Shown: positions 16,644 to 24,108, counted from the first letter of the stretch. The stretch: 64,000 nucleotides of DNA from Holdemania sp. Marseille-P2844 (GCF_900120005.1 NZ_LT635452.1:186001-250000), one strand, 5' to 3'. A program made the numbers and translations. The notes: generated by a model not told the origin, from the sequence alone.

Positions 16644-17897
16644 ATGAAAATTGCGGGATTTACCTCGATCAGCGATGATAATAAGCGGCAGCTTGGACTT
16701 TTCATAAAGATAGAACGGGAAAGCCAGGGATTGTCGCAAAAAGAATTGATCAATGATGCAAATCAGAGGCAGATTTGTTCTGTATCAACCCTTCATCGGA
16801 TCGAAACTGGACAAATTATAAAAGATGATGTCATTTATCACGAGTTGATTCAGCGGCTGGGATATGCGTTCAAAGAAAATGTTAGTTTAGACAAAGTGCT
16901 GCCGGACTTAAATCAACAATGCCTGCATTATTTTGAAACTTTAAATTTATCGGAAGCGGAAATGATTTTAGATCGTGTTCAAGCTTTATTTAAAACGTCC
17001 TCTTTCTATTATGATCAATTAAAACAATGTTACCTGGATTTGATTCACATCAGTCTCAATAAAGAAAAGCTTTCAGACAGTAAATATAAATGGTATCAAA
17101 TGATGAGAAACGTTGTTCCAAGTCCTTTGAATGTTTTATTGCTGCATCTGTGTTTTTGTCATTCGATGAATTATTTGCAGAGCTTAAATGAAATTATCAG
17201 CTACGAAAAAGAACTGGAGTTTTGTGATCATTATTTAATAATAAAATTTGATTTGCTGTATGTCTTGAAATATAAAGGAAATTATGGAAAACTCATTGAA
17301 TTAATGAATGAAGTTCGTGAAGAATGTGAAATGAAGAATTTGCCGAATCAACAGTTGAAATGTTTAGCATTTTTAGTTGGCACAGCCTGTATCATTAATA
17401 CTTTTGATATTCATTCAGCAATTTGTGAATTAGAAAAGTTCATCATGGAGAATAAAAATAAGTTAAACCCAGAGATTCTTAATAATGGCTACTATACTCT
17501 GGCAATGACATATTATGAAGATTTACGAAATTATACGAAAGCTTTGGAAATGTTTCAGAGCCTTTTAATTCTCAATCCGCTAAAAATATACGCTTGCGGC
17601 CTGTTTTATTTTACATGCTGTGACTACTTAAAAATAGAACCGGATTCTAAGATTCTCAAAAGCATAGACACGAAACAAGCTAATTTGTTTTTGCAGTATT
17701 TCATTTATAAATATAGCTCGAAAAGTACAATGAAAGATCTGGGCAATTATATCAATAAAACACTCATACCAGAGTTAAAAAAAGAGAAAAAACCAATGAT
17801 CATTAGTGTGTTTAAGAAACAATGGGGTTTTATATTAGAAAAAGACCATAATAAATATTATAAACCATTTTACGACTTTATGCGCGAATTTGAATGA
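16644..17897 (+). CDS. RRNPP-like peptide-sensing transcriptional regulator (XRE HTH + TPR)
   Basis: Probable quorum-sensing type regulator. 417 residues from ATG 16644 (AAGGAGGG at 16628-16635; a TTG at 16638 is less well placed). The N-terminal helix-turn-helix spans about 14-70 (KIERESQGLSQKELIND, STLHRIETGQ). The rest is helical with repeats of the tetratricopeptide type, as in Rgg, PlcR, NprR and PrgX, whose repeat domain binds a short secreted peptide after import. Base composition is clearly more AT-rich than upstream genes. It follows the kinase by 22 bases and is followed by a small secreted-peptide locus with its own promoter. Its target promoters are inferred, not seen. Confidence 0.75.
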   Translation: MKIAGFTSISDDNKRQLGLFIKIERESQGLSQKELINDANQRQICSVSTLHRIETGQIIKDDVIYHELIQRLGYAFKENVSLDKVLPDLNQQCLHYFETLNLSEAEMILDRVQALFKTSSFYYDQLKQCYLDLIHISLNKEKLSDSKYKWYQMMRNVVPSPLNVLLLHLCFCHSMNYLQSLNEIISYEKELEFCDHYLIIKFDLLYVLKYKGNYGKLIELMNEVREECEMKNLPNQQLKCLAFLVGTACIINTFDIHSAICELEKFIMENKNKLNPEILNNGYYTLAMTYYEDLRNYTKALEMFQSLLILNPLKIYACGLFYFTCCDYLKIEPDSKILKSIDTKQANLFLQYFIYKYSSKSTMKDLGNYINKTLIPELKKEKKPMIISVFKKQWGFILEKDHNKYYKPFYDFMREFE

Positions 17898-17970
17898 CAA
17901 TTATGAAATTTATACCTAAAGTATGATTTTTTGTTCCAACCTTTCAAAATAATAATTTTCAGGATATAAC

Positions 17971-17988
17971 TGATATAATGCAATTATA
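17971..17988 (+). promoter_or_regulatory. Promoter of the small peptide gene with palindrome
   Basis: Extended -10 TGATATAAT (17971-17979), 31 bases before the ATG at 18010. It is part of the palindrome TATAATGCAATTATA (17974-17988), six-base arms around three bases, a possible operator over the -10. No good -35, as often with activator-dependent promoters. Confidence 0.5.
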
Positions 17989-18009
17989 AAAAGAAAAGAG
18001 GATAATCCA

Positions 18010-18352
18010 ATGGTAAAAAAATTATTAATCTTGCTTCTTCTTGCGGCATCTCTATCTTTAATGGGTTTCAGTATTAATGCAGCAGGAAAAGTTGAAGCCC
18101 GTTGTGGATATCCTGAATGTGATTTCGGATCTTATTGAAATTCAATAAAGTAGATTCTATCAAAGCAAAAGCGCTAAGAATGCAATGGAAACAATGACAA
18201 AAAGTAACCTGTTTGAAAGTCGAATTATGTTAATGTTTTTTTCTTTACGATGCGGTCCAAGAACTGAGGGATCAAAAACCTAACCTTTGTAACAGGAAAT
18301 TATGAAGTGAGAGGATATAAAGAAGAAAAGTCAGCTGGTATTTATATCTAAG
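18010..18352 (+). pseudogene. Small secreted peptide/protein gene, probably frameshifted
   Basis: The first frame encodes 42 residues (18010-18138): signal peptide MVKKLLILLLLAASLSLMGF, then a short tail with RCGYPECDFGSY before TGA. AGAGGA is well placed. Protein-like sequence continues in other frames: RFYQSKSAKNAMETMTKS (about 18146 on), YDAVQELRDQKPNL (about 18246 on) and, back in the first frame, TFVTGNYEVRGYKEEKSAGI, which stops at 18350-18352 just before a terminator. Each change is in the same direction and one lies at a run of T (18235-18242). The best reading is a broken gene for a secreted protein of about 110 residues. An intact 42-residue peptide is the alternative. Confidence 0.55.
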
Positions 18353-18353
18353 T

Positions 18354-18394
18354 AAAGAAGCACTGTTACACTCTGATAGTAATAGTGCTTCTTT
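18354..18394 (+). terminator. Hairpin ending the small peptide transcript
   Basis: Perfect 11-bp stem AAAGAAGCACT (18354-18364) / AGTGCTTCTTT (18384-18394), two bases after the last stop of the broken peptide gene. The T run after the stem is short, but the stem itself ends TTCTTT. Bases 18395-18593 show no gene. Confidence 0.65.
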
Positions 18395-18593
18395 AACATA
18401 AGTCTTTAATCTTGATTTAAATAAAAGAAGTCAAAAACAAGATTAAATTTAGGTTGTTGAGAAAGCTGCGAGTGAAATAAAAAGTTATAATTCCAAATGC
18501 GAGCAATAATTAAATCATGGTAAGGAGAGGATCAAATCAGAGTAGGGTGTTAATTTCTGAATGCAATGTTCTATTAAGAGGAGGAATAGCGTT

Positions 18594-19994
18594 ATGAAAA
18601 GAATATGCCTAATAATTATGTGTCTTGTTTTACTAAGCACAGGATGTAGTGAACAAAAAACAACAACGCTTAATATCTATTATATGATTGGAGGATATTT
18701 TCGTAAGGAAGAAACAGCTGAAATTAATGCTTATCTAAAAAAGATTAATTCCGGATATCAAATCAATTTTGTTAATATGATCAACACTATTCCTTACGAT
18801 AATGAAACTGAAAATATTGTCTATACTTCAATGTCACAACGTATTTTAGAATATTTAAAAGAAGCACGGGAACAACATCTTGAAATTGATATTTTAAATG
18901 CAAATCAGCTAGGTTCTATGGATTTTTCCAGGACATATTTGGTCGATGAAGGACTTCTAACAGAATTGGATCCTTATTTTAAAAATACGGAATCTGGAAA
19001 AATAGTTTATAACGCTTATCCTGAAATAATATTCGATTCGCAAAAAATTGATGGTAAATCTTATTTTGTCCCTGGCAGTCTTTTTGATTTAGTGGAGACG
19101 AAATCCAGCTGTTTTGATAAAGTAGCCTATATGGCAATAAAAAAAGATTATTTAGATCAAGCACAATTTGATCAACCGTTGGGATATAATCTTTCGCAAT
19201 ATAATAATTTTTTGCGGAAAATAGGAATGCAGGATGAAACTCAACTTTTGTTTTATAATTCGTTTAGAATTATGAACAACTTTCCTGGCTTAACGCCTGT
19301 TTGCGGAAGTTCTTTACGCGTAAGTCCATTTGTAATTGATGAAAAAACACAGACTGTTAAAATTCTTTATGAATGTGAAGACTGGCTGGATTCTTTAAAT
19401 ACTTTTCAGGGAATTTTCCAAGATGATTATTATGTTTATGATAGTGATTATATTGATATGAACGCTGTTGTTTGGTATGACTATGTGAATGATGAAGAAG
19501 AGAATGATCGTATTTATATAGCTGAAAATTATAATTATATAAATGTTATTCCTTATTGGGGATTAGCGATTCCATCCTGGTGTGATAAAAAAGACGAAGT
19601 TATGGATTTTTTCGGATTGTTGTACAGCGATCCTGAACTTAGCCGCTTATTTTTTCCCGATGCTCTGAATCCAGGGGAAAAGATGTTTTTTGGATATGGT
19701 AATCCATATATTGTAGAAGGTTCGACATTACCAAAAGATTTAACCAAAGAGAATCATCAGAAATTTTATGAGTCCTTAAATAAATCCTGTGCGTATGGGT
19801 TTACTTTTGATTTCAGTGAATATTTTGATGAAATGCAGGATCTTGTTGTCAAGCATAACGAATATTATACTTTCTATAATGATACGAGTTTTATCGATAT
19901 GGAAAAGTATAAAGAAGTGATGAAGGATACGCGTATTGAAGAAATCCGCGATGATCTCAATGCACAATTGCAGCGATATTTGAAGGGAGATTGA
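18594..19994 (+). CDS. Extracellular solute-binding-like lipoprotein (family 1)
   Basis: 466 residues from ATG 18594 (AGAGGAGGAA ahead). Signal peptide with lipobox LLSTGC (Cys18), so membrane-anchored outside the cell. The body resembles family 1 solute-binding proteins: LNIYYMIGG first strand, YLVDEGLLTELDPYF, VIPYWGLAIPSWCDKKDEVMDF and DPELSRLFFPD. No sugar-type import permeases follow; instead the operon encodes a second lipoprotein and an ABC-2 type exporter. It could deliver or sense a ligand for that system. AT-rich like its neighbours. First gene of a four-gene run with spacings of 3 bases or overlaps. Confidence 0.75.
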   Translation: MKRICLIIMCLVLLSTGCSEQKTTTLNIYYMIGGYFRKEETAEINAYLKKINSGYQINFVNMINTIPYDNETENIVYTSMSQRILEYLKEAREQHLEIDILNANQLGSMDFSRTYLVDEGLLTELDPYFKNTESGKIVYNAYPEIIFDSQKIDGKSYFVPGSLFDLVETKSSCFDKVAYMAIKKDYLDQAQFDQPLGYNLSQYNNFLRKIGMQDETQLLFYNSFRIMNNFPGLTPVCGSSLRVSPFVIDEKTQTVKILYECEDWLDSLNTFQGIFQDDYYVYDSDYIDMNAVVWYDYVNDEEENDRIYIAENYNYINVIPYWGLAIPSWCDKKDEVMDFFGLLYSDPELSRLFFPDALNPGEKMFFGYGNPYIVEGSTLPKDLTKENHQKFYESLNKSCAYGFTFDFSEYFDEMQDLVVKHNEYYTFYNDTSFIDMEKYKEVMKDTRIEEIRDDLNAQLQRYLKGD

Positions 19995-19997
19995 GTC

Positions 19998-21137
19998 ATG
20001 AAAAAGGGAATCCTGGCAGTCTTGATTTTTACGCTGTTAACAGGTTGTGCTTCAAGTCAAAAGGCTGTTCCAACAATGTCAGAAGAAGACTATTATTTAG
20101 TCACTTATCGAAATATTAATAATGTAGGAATATTTCAATTTGGCGATGAAGAAACAGGAATGGCTTACTTTGATTTTACGACAGGCAAGGTTATTCGTAT
20201 TCCGGAAAAAAATATGAAAAATGATCCGCACATGTATCCTGCGTATATCAGTGGCATCGCTTATTATGATAATTTCATTTATTATACATATCATAATGAA
20301 AATTACTTAGCTTTTATGCGAATGGATCCCGATGGGAAAAATGTAAAAGAATTGTACCGATATAAAAATAAAAAATATAATGAAATAATGCCGGATAGTT
20401 ATTCGTTTATTTATCATGATCATAAAATTTATATGGAAATCATCGGCAGTCAGTTCCAGAAAAACGGAAGTTTAGTGGAAGAAAGTCAGTTAGCTTATTT
20501 TGATTTGAAGGATGACTCGTTACATTTATTATACGAACCGACCCTGCAACAGACGGCGGAATGCCGGAAGCTCGTAGCGGCAGATCATCAATTCATATTT
20601 TTTAAAACATCGGAGGATCAGGAACAAAACGAAAATCCGAAGGAATTTTTAAATTGTTATAATCTGGAAACGAAGGAAACGCTCATTTTGGATGAAGCTG
20701 AGAAAATTCGGATCACGTTGATGAAGAATATTGATCATGAAAAAAAATGTTTATATTATTTAGATCAGGATTATTCGCTTGTTGAATTGAATTATCAGCA
20801 ACAAACACATCGTATTGTTTTAAATAACCCGGATCCGATCGATTTCCGCTTCTATGATCACGGGAAAGCCTTTTATTCTAATTTAACGGTTGATATGACA
20901 CAAAGACCGGAGAAAGTGACTTATGGATATATTGACATCGAAAGCGGAGAAAATTATCCGGATTTCAATAAAGAAGGTCAGCAATTTTTTGTTACAGAAA
21001 GCAATGATCAATACTTTATAGGCACGAAACGGAAGTATGGCGAAGCAGTAGATTCTCTTTGGTATTATCTTGAGAAAGAAGCGTATTTTAAACAAGAATT
21101 TGAGAAGGCAAAACCAGTCACAGGATTGGATTGGTGA
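19998..21137 (+). CDS. Lipoprotein of unknown function, beta-propeller-like
   Basis: 379 residues starting 3 bases after the previous stop. Lipobox LLTGC (Cys17). The rest is rich in repeated short beta-strand units of the form YDNFIYYTYHNENYLAFMRM, YHDHKIYMEI and KKCLYYLDQDYSLVEL, the look of propeller-type proteins (DUF5050-like). I do not recognise a family with certainty. The stop TGA overlaps the region where the next gene's ribosome site lies. Probable surface partner of the binding-protein-like lipoprotein and the ABC transporter. Confidence 0.65.
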   Translation: MKKGILAVLIFTLLTGCASSQKAVPTMSEEDYYLVTYRNINNVGIFQFGDEETGMAYFDFTTGKVIRIPEKNMKNDPHMYPAYISGIAYYDNFIYYTYHNENYLAFMRMDPDGKNVKELYRYKNKKYNEIMPDSYSFIYHDHKIYMEIIGSQFQKNGSLVEESQLAYFDLKDDSLHLLYEPTLQQTAECRKLVAADHQFIFFKTSEDQEQNENPKEFLNCYNLETKETLILDEAEKIRITLMKNIDHEKKCLYYLDQDYSLVELNYQQQTHRIVLNNPDPIDFRFYDHGKAFYSNLTVDMTQRPEKVTYGYIDIESGENYPDFNKEGQQFFVTESNDQYFIGTKRKYGEAVDSLWYYLEKEAYFKQEFEKAKPVTGLDW

Positions 21138-21142
21138 AATTT

Positions 21143-22015
21143 ATGATTCTGGAAATCAAAGAACTGACAAAACGCTATCATGAAAAATCAGCGCTGGATC
21201 ATATCAATCTAACGCTGAAAGAAGGGGTTTATGGACTTCTTGGTCCCAATGGGGCAGGGAAATCGACCTTAATGAATATCTTAGTTGGAAATATAGAAAA
21301 AACGTCTGGAGAAATTCTTTGGAATGGGAAACCACTTAAAGAATGTCGAGCTCAATTCAACCATGGTTTAGGTTATATGCCGCAGAATCAGCCTTTGTAC
21401 GAAGATTTTACAGGTTATGATTTTATGGGATATTTTGCGGCGTTGAAGGAAATACCGCGGGATCAGATTTCAAATGAAATTGAACGTGGGCTGAAACAAG
21501 TCTTTCTATGGCCGGAGCGAAATCAACGAATTAAAGAATATTCAGGTGGAATGAAACAGCGCCTGTTATTGGCGGCAACTCTTTTAAAAGATCCTGAAGT
21601 GATCATTCTTGATGAACCTACGGCAGGATTGGATCCGATGCAGCGTGTACAAGTAAGGAAAATCCTCGCCCAATTATCCAAGGCAAAAATTATTATTTAC
21701 GCTACGCATGTCATCAGCGACGTGGAATTGATCGCAAACGAATTTATTTTTCTGAAGCAAGGGAAAATCATCCAACGAGGAACAATGAACGAATTGACGG
21801 AGTTGTTTCCTAATCATGTTTATGAAATTACCTGTGATGAAGAAACCTGTGAAAAACTTAAGCGGGAATGCTGCGTAACTCGGATTCAGAAAAAAAATGA
21901 AGGCTATACTGTCAGAGTGATAACAAAAGAAATTTGGAAAGACTATAAATCAATATCGCCATCCCTGGAGGATTTGTATCTTAACGATTTTGAGGATGAA
22001 CAGTTATGGATTTAG
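21143..22015 (+). CDS. ABC-2 type transporter ATPase
   Basis: Energy subunit of an export-type ABC transporter. 290 residues from ATG 21143, with GGTGA five bases upstream inside the end of the previous gene. Walker A GPNGAGKST (about 34-42), Q-loop GYMPQNQPLYEDFT, signature YSGGMKQR, Walker B VIILDEPTAGLDP and switch ATHVISDVE. The C-terminal 75 residues form the accessory domain common in ABC-2 ATPases. Overlaps the permease gene by 10 bases. The family includes bacteriocin, lantibiotic-immunity and drug exporters; the cargo is unknown. Confidence 0.88.
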   Translation: MILEIKELTKRYHEKSALDHINLTLKEGVYGLLGPNGAGKSTLMNILVGNIEKTSGEILWNGKPLKECRAQFNHGLGYMPQNQPLYEDFTGYDFMGYFAALKEIPRDQISNEIERGLKQVFLWPERNQRIKEYSGGMKQRLLLAATLLKDPEVIILDEPTAGLDPMQRVQVRKILAQLSKAKIIIYATHVISDVELIANEFIFLKQGKIIQRGTMNELTELFPNHVYEITCDEETCEKLKRECCVTRIQKKNEGYTVRVITKEIWKDYKSISPSLEDLYLNDFEDEQLWI

Positions 22016-23982
22016 TAAGATATGAAATTAAGAAATGTCTGAGACATTCGCCATTTCGTAAAGTCGTTATTTTCATTATTCTTTTCCATTGTGCAGCGAC
22101 GACATTTCTATTGTTTCAAAAAGAAAATGGTGTTTCATGGGTTAGCTTGGCCTGCTCATCTGACGAAGTGAGCCGGCAATTTTATGAAAATCAAATCGAA
22201 GAAGCAAAGGCTTATCCACAGTTTGTTGAGCAGGTTTTAAGCGAGGATGACCGCCTTCGCCAATCCACTTTATTTAGTGACCCGGGGTCTTATGCTTTTT
22301 TAAGCAGTGAACGCAAAGCGGAATATTATAGAAAATTAAGCCATCGTCAATTTCAATTACAGCCAGCATTTTCGTTGAGCTTCATTTTACAGGAACCCGT
22401 GAGTTTGGCGATGGTGCTTATTTTTATAATTTTCAGTGTTTATTCGTTATTGATAAAAGAAAAAGAAGACCATCTTGAACCTTTGTTAATGCCAATCCCA
22501 CGATATAAAACGAAAGCTGCAGTACATAAATTTATAAGCCTTTTTCTTATGGGAAGCGGCATGTTTATATTTTTAGAACTGCTGAAATGGGGAATCAGCC
22601 TTTCGTTATTAGGGTGGAAGTGCGATTTAAGTTTGCCGATCCAGACTGTCATGGGTTTTCTCTATGTTCCCTACGCTATGAGTGCAGGTTCTTTTTTAGC
22701 GGTCTATTTAAGCATGAAAGCTTTTATTACTTTATTTTTTCTGCTTTTTATCAGTGCTATTGCCGTTCGGTTAAATCAAGGGCCTGCATTTTATCTTTGC
22801 ATAATTCTGCTGTTTGGCGCAGAGATCGGACTTTATAACAAGATTGTGAACGAATCATTTTTAATTTTATTGAAATATGTGAATCTTGCTGCTTTACTGC
22901 AGTTCAATCAATATTTATCTGCTTTTATGAGTGTGCCGATAGGAAACTATCCGATAGAAATCTGTTATTTGATAATTTTAACATGTTTATTAGGCGTGGT
23001 CAGCAGCGGTATTTTCTTTCGCTATGCAACGAAGCATCCAAAACCAGAGATAAAAAGAAATTGGAAATTAAATTTGAAACATGATTTTCACCCGCGTTCC
23101 TTATTGAATTATGAATTCCGTAAATTCTGGATGAATGGAGAAAATCTTTTTGTCTTTATCGCACTGATCATTTTACAATCATTTTATTGCTGGCAATATT
23201 CACCGTATATCGGAAAAGATGAGTATTATTATCAACAGTTTTCATTTCAACTGCAGGGAACATTGGACGAAAGACAGACGAAGTGGGTTGCCAATCAAAA
23301 TCAGTATTATGCCGGTATTCAAAGTCAAATATCGAAATTATATGAGCAGTACGCAGACAAAAAAATGGATCAGAGAACATTGGAAAGAGAAGTGTTTACT
23401 TTAACGTTGAATCTGGAAAGTATGGAGGGATTCCAAAGAGCAGAGCAGCAAATGGAGCAGCTTCAATCGTTAGGGAAAACTGAATATGTATACGAAACTC
23501 CTGTAATTCAGATTTTTAAAGCTAAAGAAGAAATATTGCTTAAAGCTGGATTTCTGTTTTTAGCGATCAGCTTCTGGATCGCGGCTGCTGTTGGAAGAGA
23601 TAATGCGCTGCAGATGAATCATTTAATCCGAATTTATGAACAAAGAAAGCATAAAGTCGATGTTCAAAAACGGAAAATCGTATATTTCGTCAGCGGGGGT
23701 GTCTATAGTTTTTTGTTTCTCTCTACGGTTATTGTAAAATTAAACTATTATGAAGCCAATATTCTTTCTTACTCTGCAGCGAATGTCCTTGCCTTGGGAG
23801 TTTCCCTGCCATTTTCAATATTAGGCCTGCTTTTCATTCTGTTTGTTCTGGGCTTGGGATATGTCATCATTTTCGATGAAGTTCTGTTTCGACTGACGTC
23901 GGGTCAACGAAATCGGAATTCAGCACTATGGACAAATATTGGTTTATCGGTGATTTTCTTAATGATTCTTGGAGTTTGCTGA
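22006..23982 (+). CDS. ABC-2 type permease, large, apparently duplicated
   Basis: 658-residue membrane protein coupled to the ATPase gene by overlap. It opens VRYEIKKCLRHSPFRKVVIFIILF with a first membrane helix (about 19-37), then about 90 external residues and a block of helices (about 131-340). Near residue 366 the plan starts again: LLNYEFRKFWMNGENLFVFIALI, a helix, a long external helical stretch (about 395-500), then four helices to the C-terminus. This two-fold layout suggests fusion of two ABC-2 units in one chain, so one copy could form the whole channel. The large external loops could meet the two lipoproteins encoded upstream. Confidence 0.75.
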   Translation: MDLVRYEIKKCLRHSPFRKVVIFIILFHCAATTFLLFQKENGVSWVSLACSSDEVSRQFYENQIEEAKAYPQFVEQVLSEDDRLRQSTLFSDPGSYAFLSSERKAEYYRKLSHRQFQLQPAFSLSFILQEPVSLAMVLIFIIFSVYSLLIKEKEDHLEPLLMPIPRYKTKAAVHKFISLFLMGSGMFIFLELLKWGISLSLLGWKCDLSLPIQTVMGFLYVPYAMSAGSFLAVYLSMKAFITLFFLLFISAIAVRLNQGPAFYLCIILLFGAEIGLYNKIVNESFLILLKYVNLAALLQFNQYLSAFMSVPIGNYPIEICYLIILTCLLGVVSSGIFFRYATKHPKPEIKRNWKLNLKHDFHPRSLLNYEFRKFWMNGENLFVFIALIILQSFYCWQYSPYIGKDEYYYQQFSFQLQGTLDERQTKWVANQNQYYAGIQSQISKLYEQYADKKMDQRTLEREVFTLTLNLESMEGFQRAEQQMEQLQSLGKTEYVYETPVIQIFKAKEEILLKAGFLFLAISFWIAAAVGRDNALQMNHLIRIYEQRKHKVDVQKRKIVYFVSGGVYSFLFLSTVIVKLNYYEANILSYSAANVLALGVSLPFSILGLLFILFVLGLGYVIIFDEVLFRLTSGQRNRNSALWTNIGLSVIFLMILGVC

Positions 23983-24071: not shown

Positions 24072-24108
24072 TCCCGGAAATGACTGCCATTTCACCGGGA
24101 TTTTCTTT
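24072..24108 (+). terminator. Terminator after the ABC-2 cassette
   Basis: Stem TCCCGG (24072-24077) / CCGGGA (24095-24100), with an inner AAATG/CATTT pairing, followed by TTTTCTTTT. It closes the accessory block about 90 bases after the permease stop. Confidence 0.8.

Follow-up and report, generated by a model that had tools for sequence, protein, structure and literature searches.

A putative RRNPP-like regulator and its cysteine-tailed pro-peptide adjoin a lipoprotein and ABC-2 exporter module in Holdemania

Introduction

Do a regulator gene, a small secreted-peptide gene, two lipoprotein genes and the genes of an ABC-2-type exporter that lie in a row on the chromosome of Holdemania sp. 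Marseille-P2844 form one device, or are they separate modules that adjoin? These genes occupy positions 16644-23982 of the window, by which we mean the whole stretch of 64,000 nucleotides that was analysed (NZ_LT635452.1:186001-250000; GCF_900120005.1, an assembly of 3.68 Mb). An earlier reading of the DNA, made from the sequence alone and referred to below as the original prediction, had put forward, as one idea, a peptide-sensing cassette whose lipoproteins catch the peptide (or a target) extracellularly. By comparing the cassette with related loci we reached a different reading, to which we give a probability of roughly two in three: the first two genes, encoding the regulator P0001 and the peptide P0002, would be an RRNPP-like quorum-sensing pair with pro-peptides that end in a cysteine (Cys) tail, and this pair perhaps controls an export or self-protection module. 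At the level of sequence comparison, this reading is carried by the recurrent pairing of regulator and peptide, the conservation of the peptide as coding sequence, the co-diversification of both at a sister locus and the architecture of the regulator family.

Results

Secreted peptides with Cys-pair tails near the regulators

The gene of P0002 starts 112 bp 3' of the regulator gene, and two paralogous loci of the same genome have a similar layout. At the first, C16, the regulator (41% identical to P0001) is followed 80 bp on by a 48-aa peptide ending in ARCSFPECGFGG, a tail that matches ARCGYPECDFGSY of the window; at the second, C14, where the regulator is more distant, a small secreted open reading frame (ORF) downstream ends in GCTAPDCMFG. 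All three peptide ORFs lie on the same strand as their regulator and 80-113 bp downstream of it. Since paralogous loci carry matching peptides, the P0002 ORF is more than a chance reading frame. Similar tails were found within the genus (GCSSPDCMFQ, GCSSPDCMWQ and GCTSPDCMFQ), and those in other genera include CSPECWGI, CSPECWGV, CTPDCWL, CDSPECLDID and CNKPGCNEA.

For counting, an ORF had to be no longer than 115 aa, to pass a signal-peptide test (a crude simple rule, not SignalP) and to have a C-x(2-4)-C whose end lies at most six residues from the C-terminus, and it was regarded as near a regulator when it lay within 900 bp. Such Cys-pair secreted ORFs numbered 20 in the 84 kb near regulators versus 7 in the other 394 kb (binomial test, P = 1.9e-10), where the locus counts include near relatives and do not represent independent events. 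Because the pattern had been defined after the first cases were seen, it was also applied to 21 regulators that had been retrieved afterwards and served as a held-out set; here 3 such ORFs were observed in 37 kb near regulators and 1 in 150 kb elsewhere (P = 0.026), the clearest tail being FCSSPGCWVIA. Several of the held-out regulators were accompanied by same-strand secreted peptides with other ends, indicating that Cys-tailed peptides are one class among those of the family. With about twenty relatives showing it, the regulator-peptide pairing looks like an apparently undescribed family of cell-to-cell signals. At two loci (L090 and L097), two or three regulators of the family are clustered around peptide genes, with one peptide lying between two oppositely oriented regulators.

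Co-diversification of regulator and peptide

The C14-type locus allowed the pair to be compared between the own genome (G000) and that of a close species (G104). Residues 1-90 of the regulator, which hold the helix-turn-helix (HTH), were 97% identical in amino acids, the remainder, a tetratricopeptide repeat (TPR) domain, was 48% identical, and the peptide was 63% identical (for comparison, two genes downstream of the pair: 94% and 91%; a 201-aa gene downstream: 93% nucleotide identity). The remaining species pairs at this locus diverged in the same direction. A fixed DNA-binding domain beside a fast-changing ligand domain and peptide looks like what is expected of a receptor with a private signal. 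In two species pairs, synonymous divergence of the C14-type peptide (pS = 0.60-0.73) exceeded nonsynonymous divergence (pN = 0.15-0.25), and the peptide is judged to be under purifying selection.

The regulator family

With its 417 aa and N-terminal HTH, P0001 lies within the range used for RRNPP(A) receptors (250-500 aa); its best Pfam matches, HTH_31 (E = 6e-5) and TPR_6 (E = 0.076), were both below the curated cut-off. Its family was found in 44 of the 244 genomes of the host's family and, across the order, in roughly one of six genomes. A profile built from 44 regulators gave matches to Rap3T, an RRNPP protein of phage (1.5e-5), to RapF (1.6e-4) and, in many stretches, to designed TPR proteins (4e-73); its N-terminus matched a HipB HTH. 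Length, architecture, adjacency and co-variation fit RRNPP systems, by analogy with which P0001 would bind a peptide ligand. Searches with the regulator alignment and with the lipoprotein P0003 in named-organism genome contigs and viral contigs gave no confirmed relatives. A third paralogue in the own genome (L145:5469-6791, 440 aa) has a counterpart in G104 (L146:5078-6400), and no Cys-tail peptide was detected near either.

Several results weigh against an RRNPP-like pair that controls the exporter. As a single sequence, P0001 gave no significant TPR or RRNPP match, the family profile alone having one; its AlphaFold model, made without an alignment, was poor (pLDDT 47), and searching with its fold gave nothing significant. 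By the criteria used, a Cys-tail peptide was missing from more than half of the regulator loci, and the co-diversification comes from a sister locus rather than from that of the window, whose relatives are decayed. An operator common to the peptide-gene promoter and the operon of the lipoproteins was looked for and not found.

The lipoproteins and the ABC-2 exporter

The family profile of P0003 matched the solved solute-binding proteins (SBPs) 5suo, 5mlt and 5swa at about 1e-28, its match to DUF3502 being weak, and P0003 is assigned an SBP ancestry from these profiles. Relatives of P0003 adjoin the same ABC-2 exporter at L038, L040, L063 and in the L027/28/29/32 group; importer permease genes were neither present in the cassette nor seen beside these exporter-linked relatives. 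Ordinary SBP matches (L064-L066) adjoin ORFs of about 300 aa, the size of importer permeases. The expectation of an SBP-like lipoprotein without importer permeases therefore held, the protein going with an ABC-2 exporter and not with a sugar importer. The second lipoprotein, P0004, is a divergent member of a lipoprotein family normally encoded beside the exporter. For its putative propeller fold no relative was found in the PDB, and the single-sequence AlphaFold model was poor and beta-rich. A C-x4-C-x-H-x4-C motif kept in most of its relatives is absent from P0004 (12-member alignment), so that P0004 possibly differs in function. Motif-bearing lipoproteins (L025, L030, L031, L033, L035-L037 and others), which have no Pfam family, are encoded with an ABC-2 exporter, often near a response regulator and kinase.

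In NCBIfam the ATPase P0005 scored best against GldA, DrrA and lantibiotic-protection ATPases, all below cut-off. Homologues of the permease P0006 were found in 19 of 194 relatives, and the columns E7/K10 and E370/K373 were invariant in 12 homologues; the sequence is consistent with two halves that arose by internal duplication. The ATPase and the permease named in the original prediction were both confirmed, and both permease halves open with YE-x-[KR]-K.

Lipoprotein, ATPase and permease together make up a widespread unit in the order, which in many cases adjoins genes for a response regulator and a histidine kinase; a subset of these units also carries an SBP-like lipoprotein. The regulator family of the window was present in none of about 25 exporter-unit loci elsewhere, and of the first 51 regulator loci to be examined, that of the window was alone in having the exporter or its lipoproteins. 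Because the two modules recur separately, the lipoproteins belong with the exporter and not with the peptide. The original prediction is thereby partly supported. Its peptide-sensing half, an RRNPP-like HTH-TPR regulator with a small secreted-peptide gene of its own, agrees with the matching peptides of the paralogous loci; its single integrated device, in which lipoproteins capture the peptide, does not agree with some 20 pairs that lack such lipoproteins and exporter, nor with the exporter loci that lack such a regulator. As to the expected recurrence of the gene set, no other locus examined held it in full, each half recurring on its own.

Other regulator-peptide pairs likewise precede secreted or lipoprotein genes. 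Secreted proteins of about 105-154 aa are encoded near exporter or regulator-peptide loci (L040:5639-5986, L028:5987-6346, L130:4051-4446, L097:10316-11144 and L115:7332-7664); none of them gave a meaningful Pfam family, and they are possible bacteriocin-like effectors. One regulator-peptide locus also encodes a matrixin-like secreted metalloprotease (L115:7741-8418, Peptidase_M10, 4.9e-8), which may either be a target or serve in peptide maturation.

Layout and history of the cassette

All six ORFs were confirmed at the positions given in Table 1, on one strand throughout. As predicted, the block is AT-rich (GC about 30-38% versus about 50% for the genome). Between the stop of the peptide gene and the inverted repeat (18139-18353) there are fragmentary reading frames, e.g. 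LTFVTGNYEVRGYKEEKSAGIYI; the loop of the repeat exceeds what the terminator scan accepts.

Table 1. Positions in the window of the genes and signals of the cassette
Feature	Position	Strand	Description or basis
Regulator P0001	16644-17897	+	N-terminal HTH plus helical TPR-type domain, 417 aa
Putative promoter of the peptide gene, extended -10-like element TGATATAAT	17971-17979	+	TAACTGATATAAT also in the decayed G078 copy
Secreted pro-peptide P0002, 42 aa, C-terminal tail ARCGYPECDFGSY	18010-18138	+	Signal-peptide-like N-terminus, purine-rich ribosome-binding site
Inverted repeat AAAGAAGCACT/AGTGCTTCTTT, perfect 11 bp, 19-nt loop	18354-18394	+	Read from sequence; possible terminator of the peptide transcript
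SBP-like lipoprotein P0003	18594-19994	+	Lipobox LSTGC
Second lipoprotein P0004 (putative beta-propeller)	19998-21137	+	Lipobox LLTGC, 12-member alignment, gene neighbours
ABC exporter ATPase P0005	21143-22015	+	ABC_tran 8e-32
Duplicated ABC-2-type permease P0006	22006-23982	+	Homologues in relatives; duplicated YE-x-[KR]-K half starts

The histidine-kinase gene upstream and the terminator-like hairpin near 24073-24099, which had been named as boundaries, both exist, but they are chromosomal backbone that is kept at the empty site of the close species. In G104, with flanks 93-96% identical, about 50 bp separate the kinase gene from the polymerase gene, and within them a stretch matching the regulator gene survives, TGCCGGACTTAAATCA (window about 16900). 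G078, with flanks of about 80% identity, retains a decayed regulator gene that has lost an internal segment, followed by the beginning of the peptide gene, everything beyond these being gone. These remnants indicate that the cassette is old in the genus and was lost at least twice, and that it is not a new arrival in the host strain. G078 also has a truncated 99-aa regulator (L093:6677-6976) syntenic to the C16 pair of the own genome, indicating that regulator-peptide pairs decay repeatedly in the genus.

Discussion

On the quorum-sensing reading, P0001 would be a cytoplasmic HTH-TPR receptor-regulator and P0002 the pro-peptide of its own pheromone. By analogy with RRNPP biology, P0002 would be exported by Sec and cut down to a short piece of its C-terminus with the C-x(2-4)-C, which would be re-imported via an Opp-type importer and bind the TPR groove, thereby altering DNA binding and switching transcription. 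The own genome encodes 12 OppA-type binding proteins. Eight OppA-type genes lie within 29 kb (G000:C17:385688-414498, L137-L144), an unusual array of peptide-importer receptors. With less certainty, the regulator may control the peptide promoter together with the downstream lipoprotein and ABC-2 exporter operon; more speculatively, this operon might be an envelope module, most likely one that pumps out a membrane-active compound or gives protection from it, whether the compound is the cell's own or a rival's.

It is possible, though short of likely, that a signalling pair and a separately regulated exporter and lipoprotein operon are two independent neighbours, an explanation that contests the exporter link only. 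The modules are joined only in the window, and the inverted repeat lies between them, the P0003 gene beginning 456 bp past the peptide stop; with this repeat after the peptide gene and no shared operator found, independent regulation may apply. On the other hand, the modules share one strand and one low-GC block and are jointly absent from G104 and G078, and the secreted or lipoprotein genes that follow other pairs too make a local-target arrangement seem common.

It is unlikely that P0002 is instead a Cys-bridged antimicrobial, i.e. a bacteriocin, with the lipoproteins and the ABC-2 exporter as immunity and the regulator as a local switch. A signal peptide with a short Cys-pair tail, the score of P0005 against lantibiotic-protection ATPases (good, though below cut-off) and the secreted proteins of 105-131 aa near some exporter and regulator relatives (L040, L028 and L130) would suit it. 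However, most regulator-peptide pairs have no such exporter or lipoproteins nearby, divergence in step with the peptide is seen in the TPR domain of the regulator, and the mature tail would be only about 10-18 aa. Comparison with LanFEG and LanI lantibiotic self-protection shows likenesses and differences: both have an ABC-2 exporter plus lipoprotein, and the ATPase resembles that class, whereas the cassette has no lantibiotic genes, two lipoproteins (one of them SBP-like) and a single fused permease, and P0005 reached 161 bits against the lantibiotic-protection ATPase family, for which the cut-off is 309.75.

The device of the original prediction, in which the lipoproteins bind the peptide outside and pass it to the exporter or keep it away from the exporter, appears very improbable: physical adjacency speaks for it, but peptide and lipoproteins co-occur nowhere else examined, and SBP-like relatives accompany the same exporter without the peptide. 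It is likewise very improbable that the 42-aa ORF represents the truncated start of a larger secreted protein, of which frame fragments follow up to the hairpin (a secreted-like fragment is readable just 5' of it), since the paralogous peptide of the own genome, as well as about 20 others, ends at the equivalent place, and this candidate was dropped when that paralogue was found.

The proposed quorum-sensing pair resembles the known RRNPP(A) systems (Rap, NprR, PlcR-PapR, Rgg-SHP, PrgX and AimR-AimP; PMC9765709, PMC10075063) in its adjacent genes, its HTH-TPR receptor of 250-500 aa, its secreted pro-peptide of 10-100 aa, the presumed C-terminal pheromone and the joint variation of receptor and peptide. 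It differs from them in that the TPRs of the window regulator are too degenerate to be called from a single sequence, and in the C-x(2-4)-C tails of its pro-peptides. The texts of PMC9765709 and PMC10075063 mention neither Erysipelotrichaceae nor cysteine. RRNPP_Detector, used in the 2023 survey, needs a TPR match at E < 1e-5 (PMC10075063), which the window regulator misses with Pfam TPR models, so such systems can escape current screens. Our literature search found nothing that ties Holdemania or Erysipelotrichaceae to RRNPP signalling or peptide quorum sensing. As for other known systems, P0003 shares ancestry by profile with the SBP lipoproteins of carbohydrate ABC importers (DUF3502-bearing) but is encoded with an ABC-2 exporter, and with respect to Agr-type signalling the cassette has no gene for an AgrB-type protease, while the upstream kinase is backbone and stays at the empty site.

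We know of no validated RRNPP pheromone that has a C-x(2-4)-C tail. It is a tentative, rather doubtful idea that these regulators form a distinct clade of intracellular peptide sensors that uses Cys-pair pheromones (e.g. RCGYPECDFG) that are disulphide-cyclised or otherwise redox-sensitive. If true, the signal would open on import and report the redox state of the gut along with cell density, and it would be the first RRNPP-type ligand with such chemistry. A recognisable receptor family with cognate Cys-tail peptides provides directly testable signals in what is probably an Erysipelotrichaceae group.

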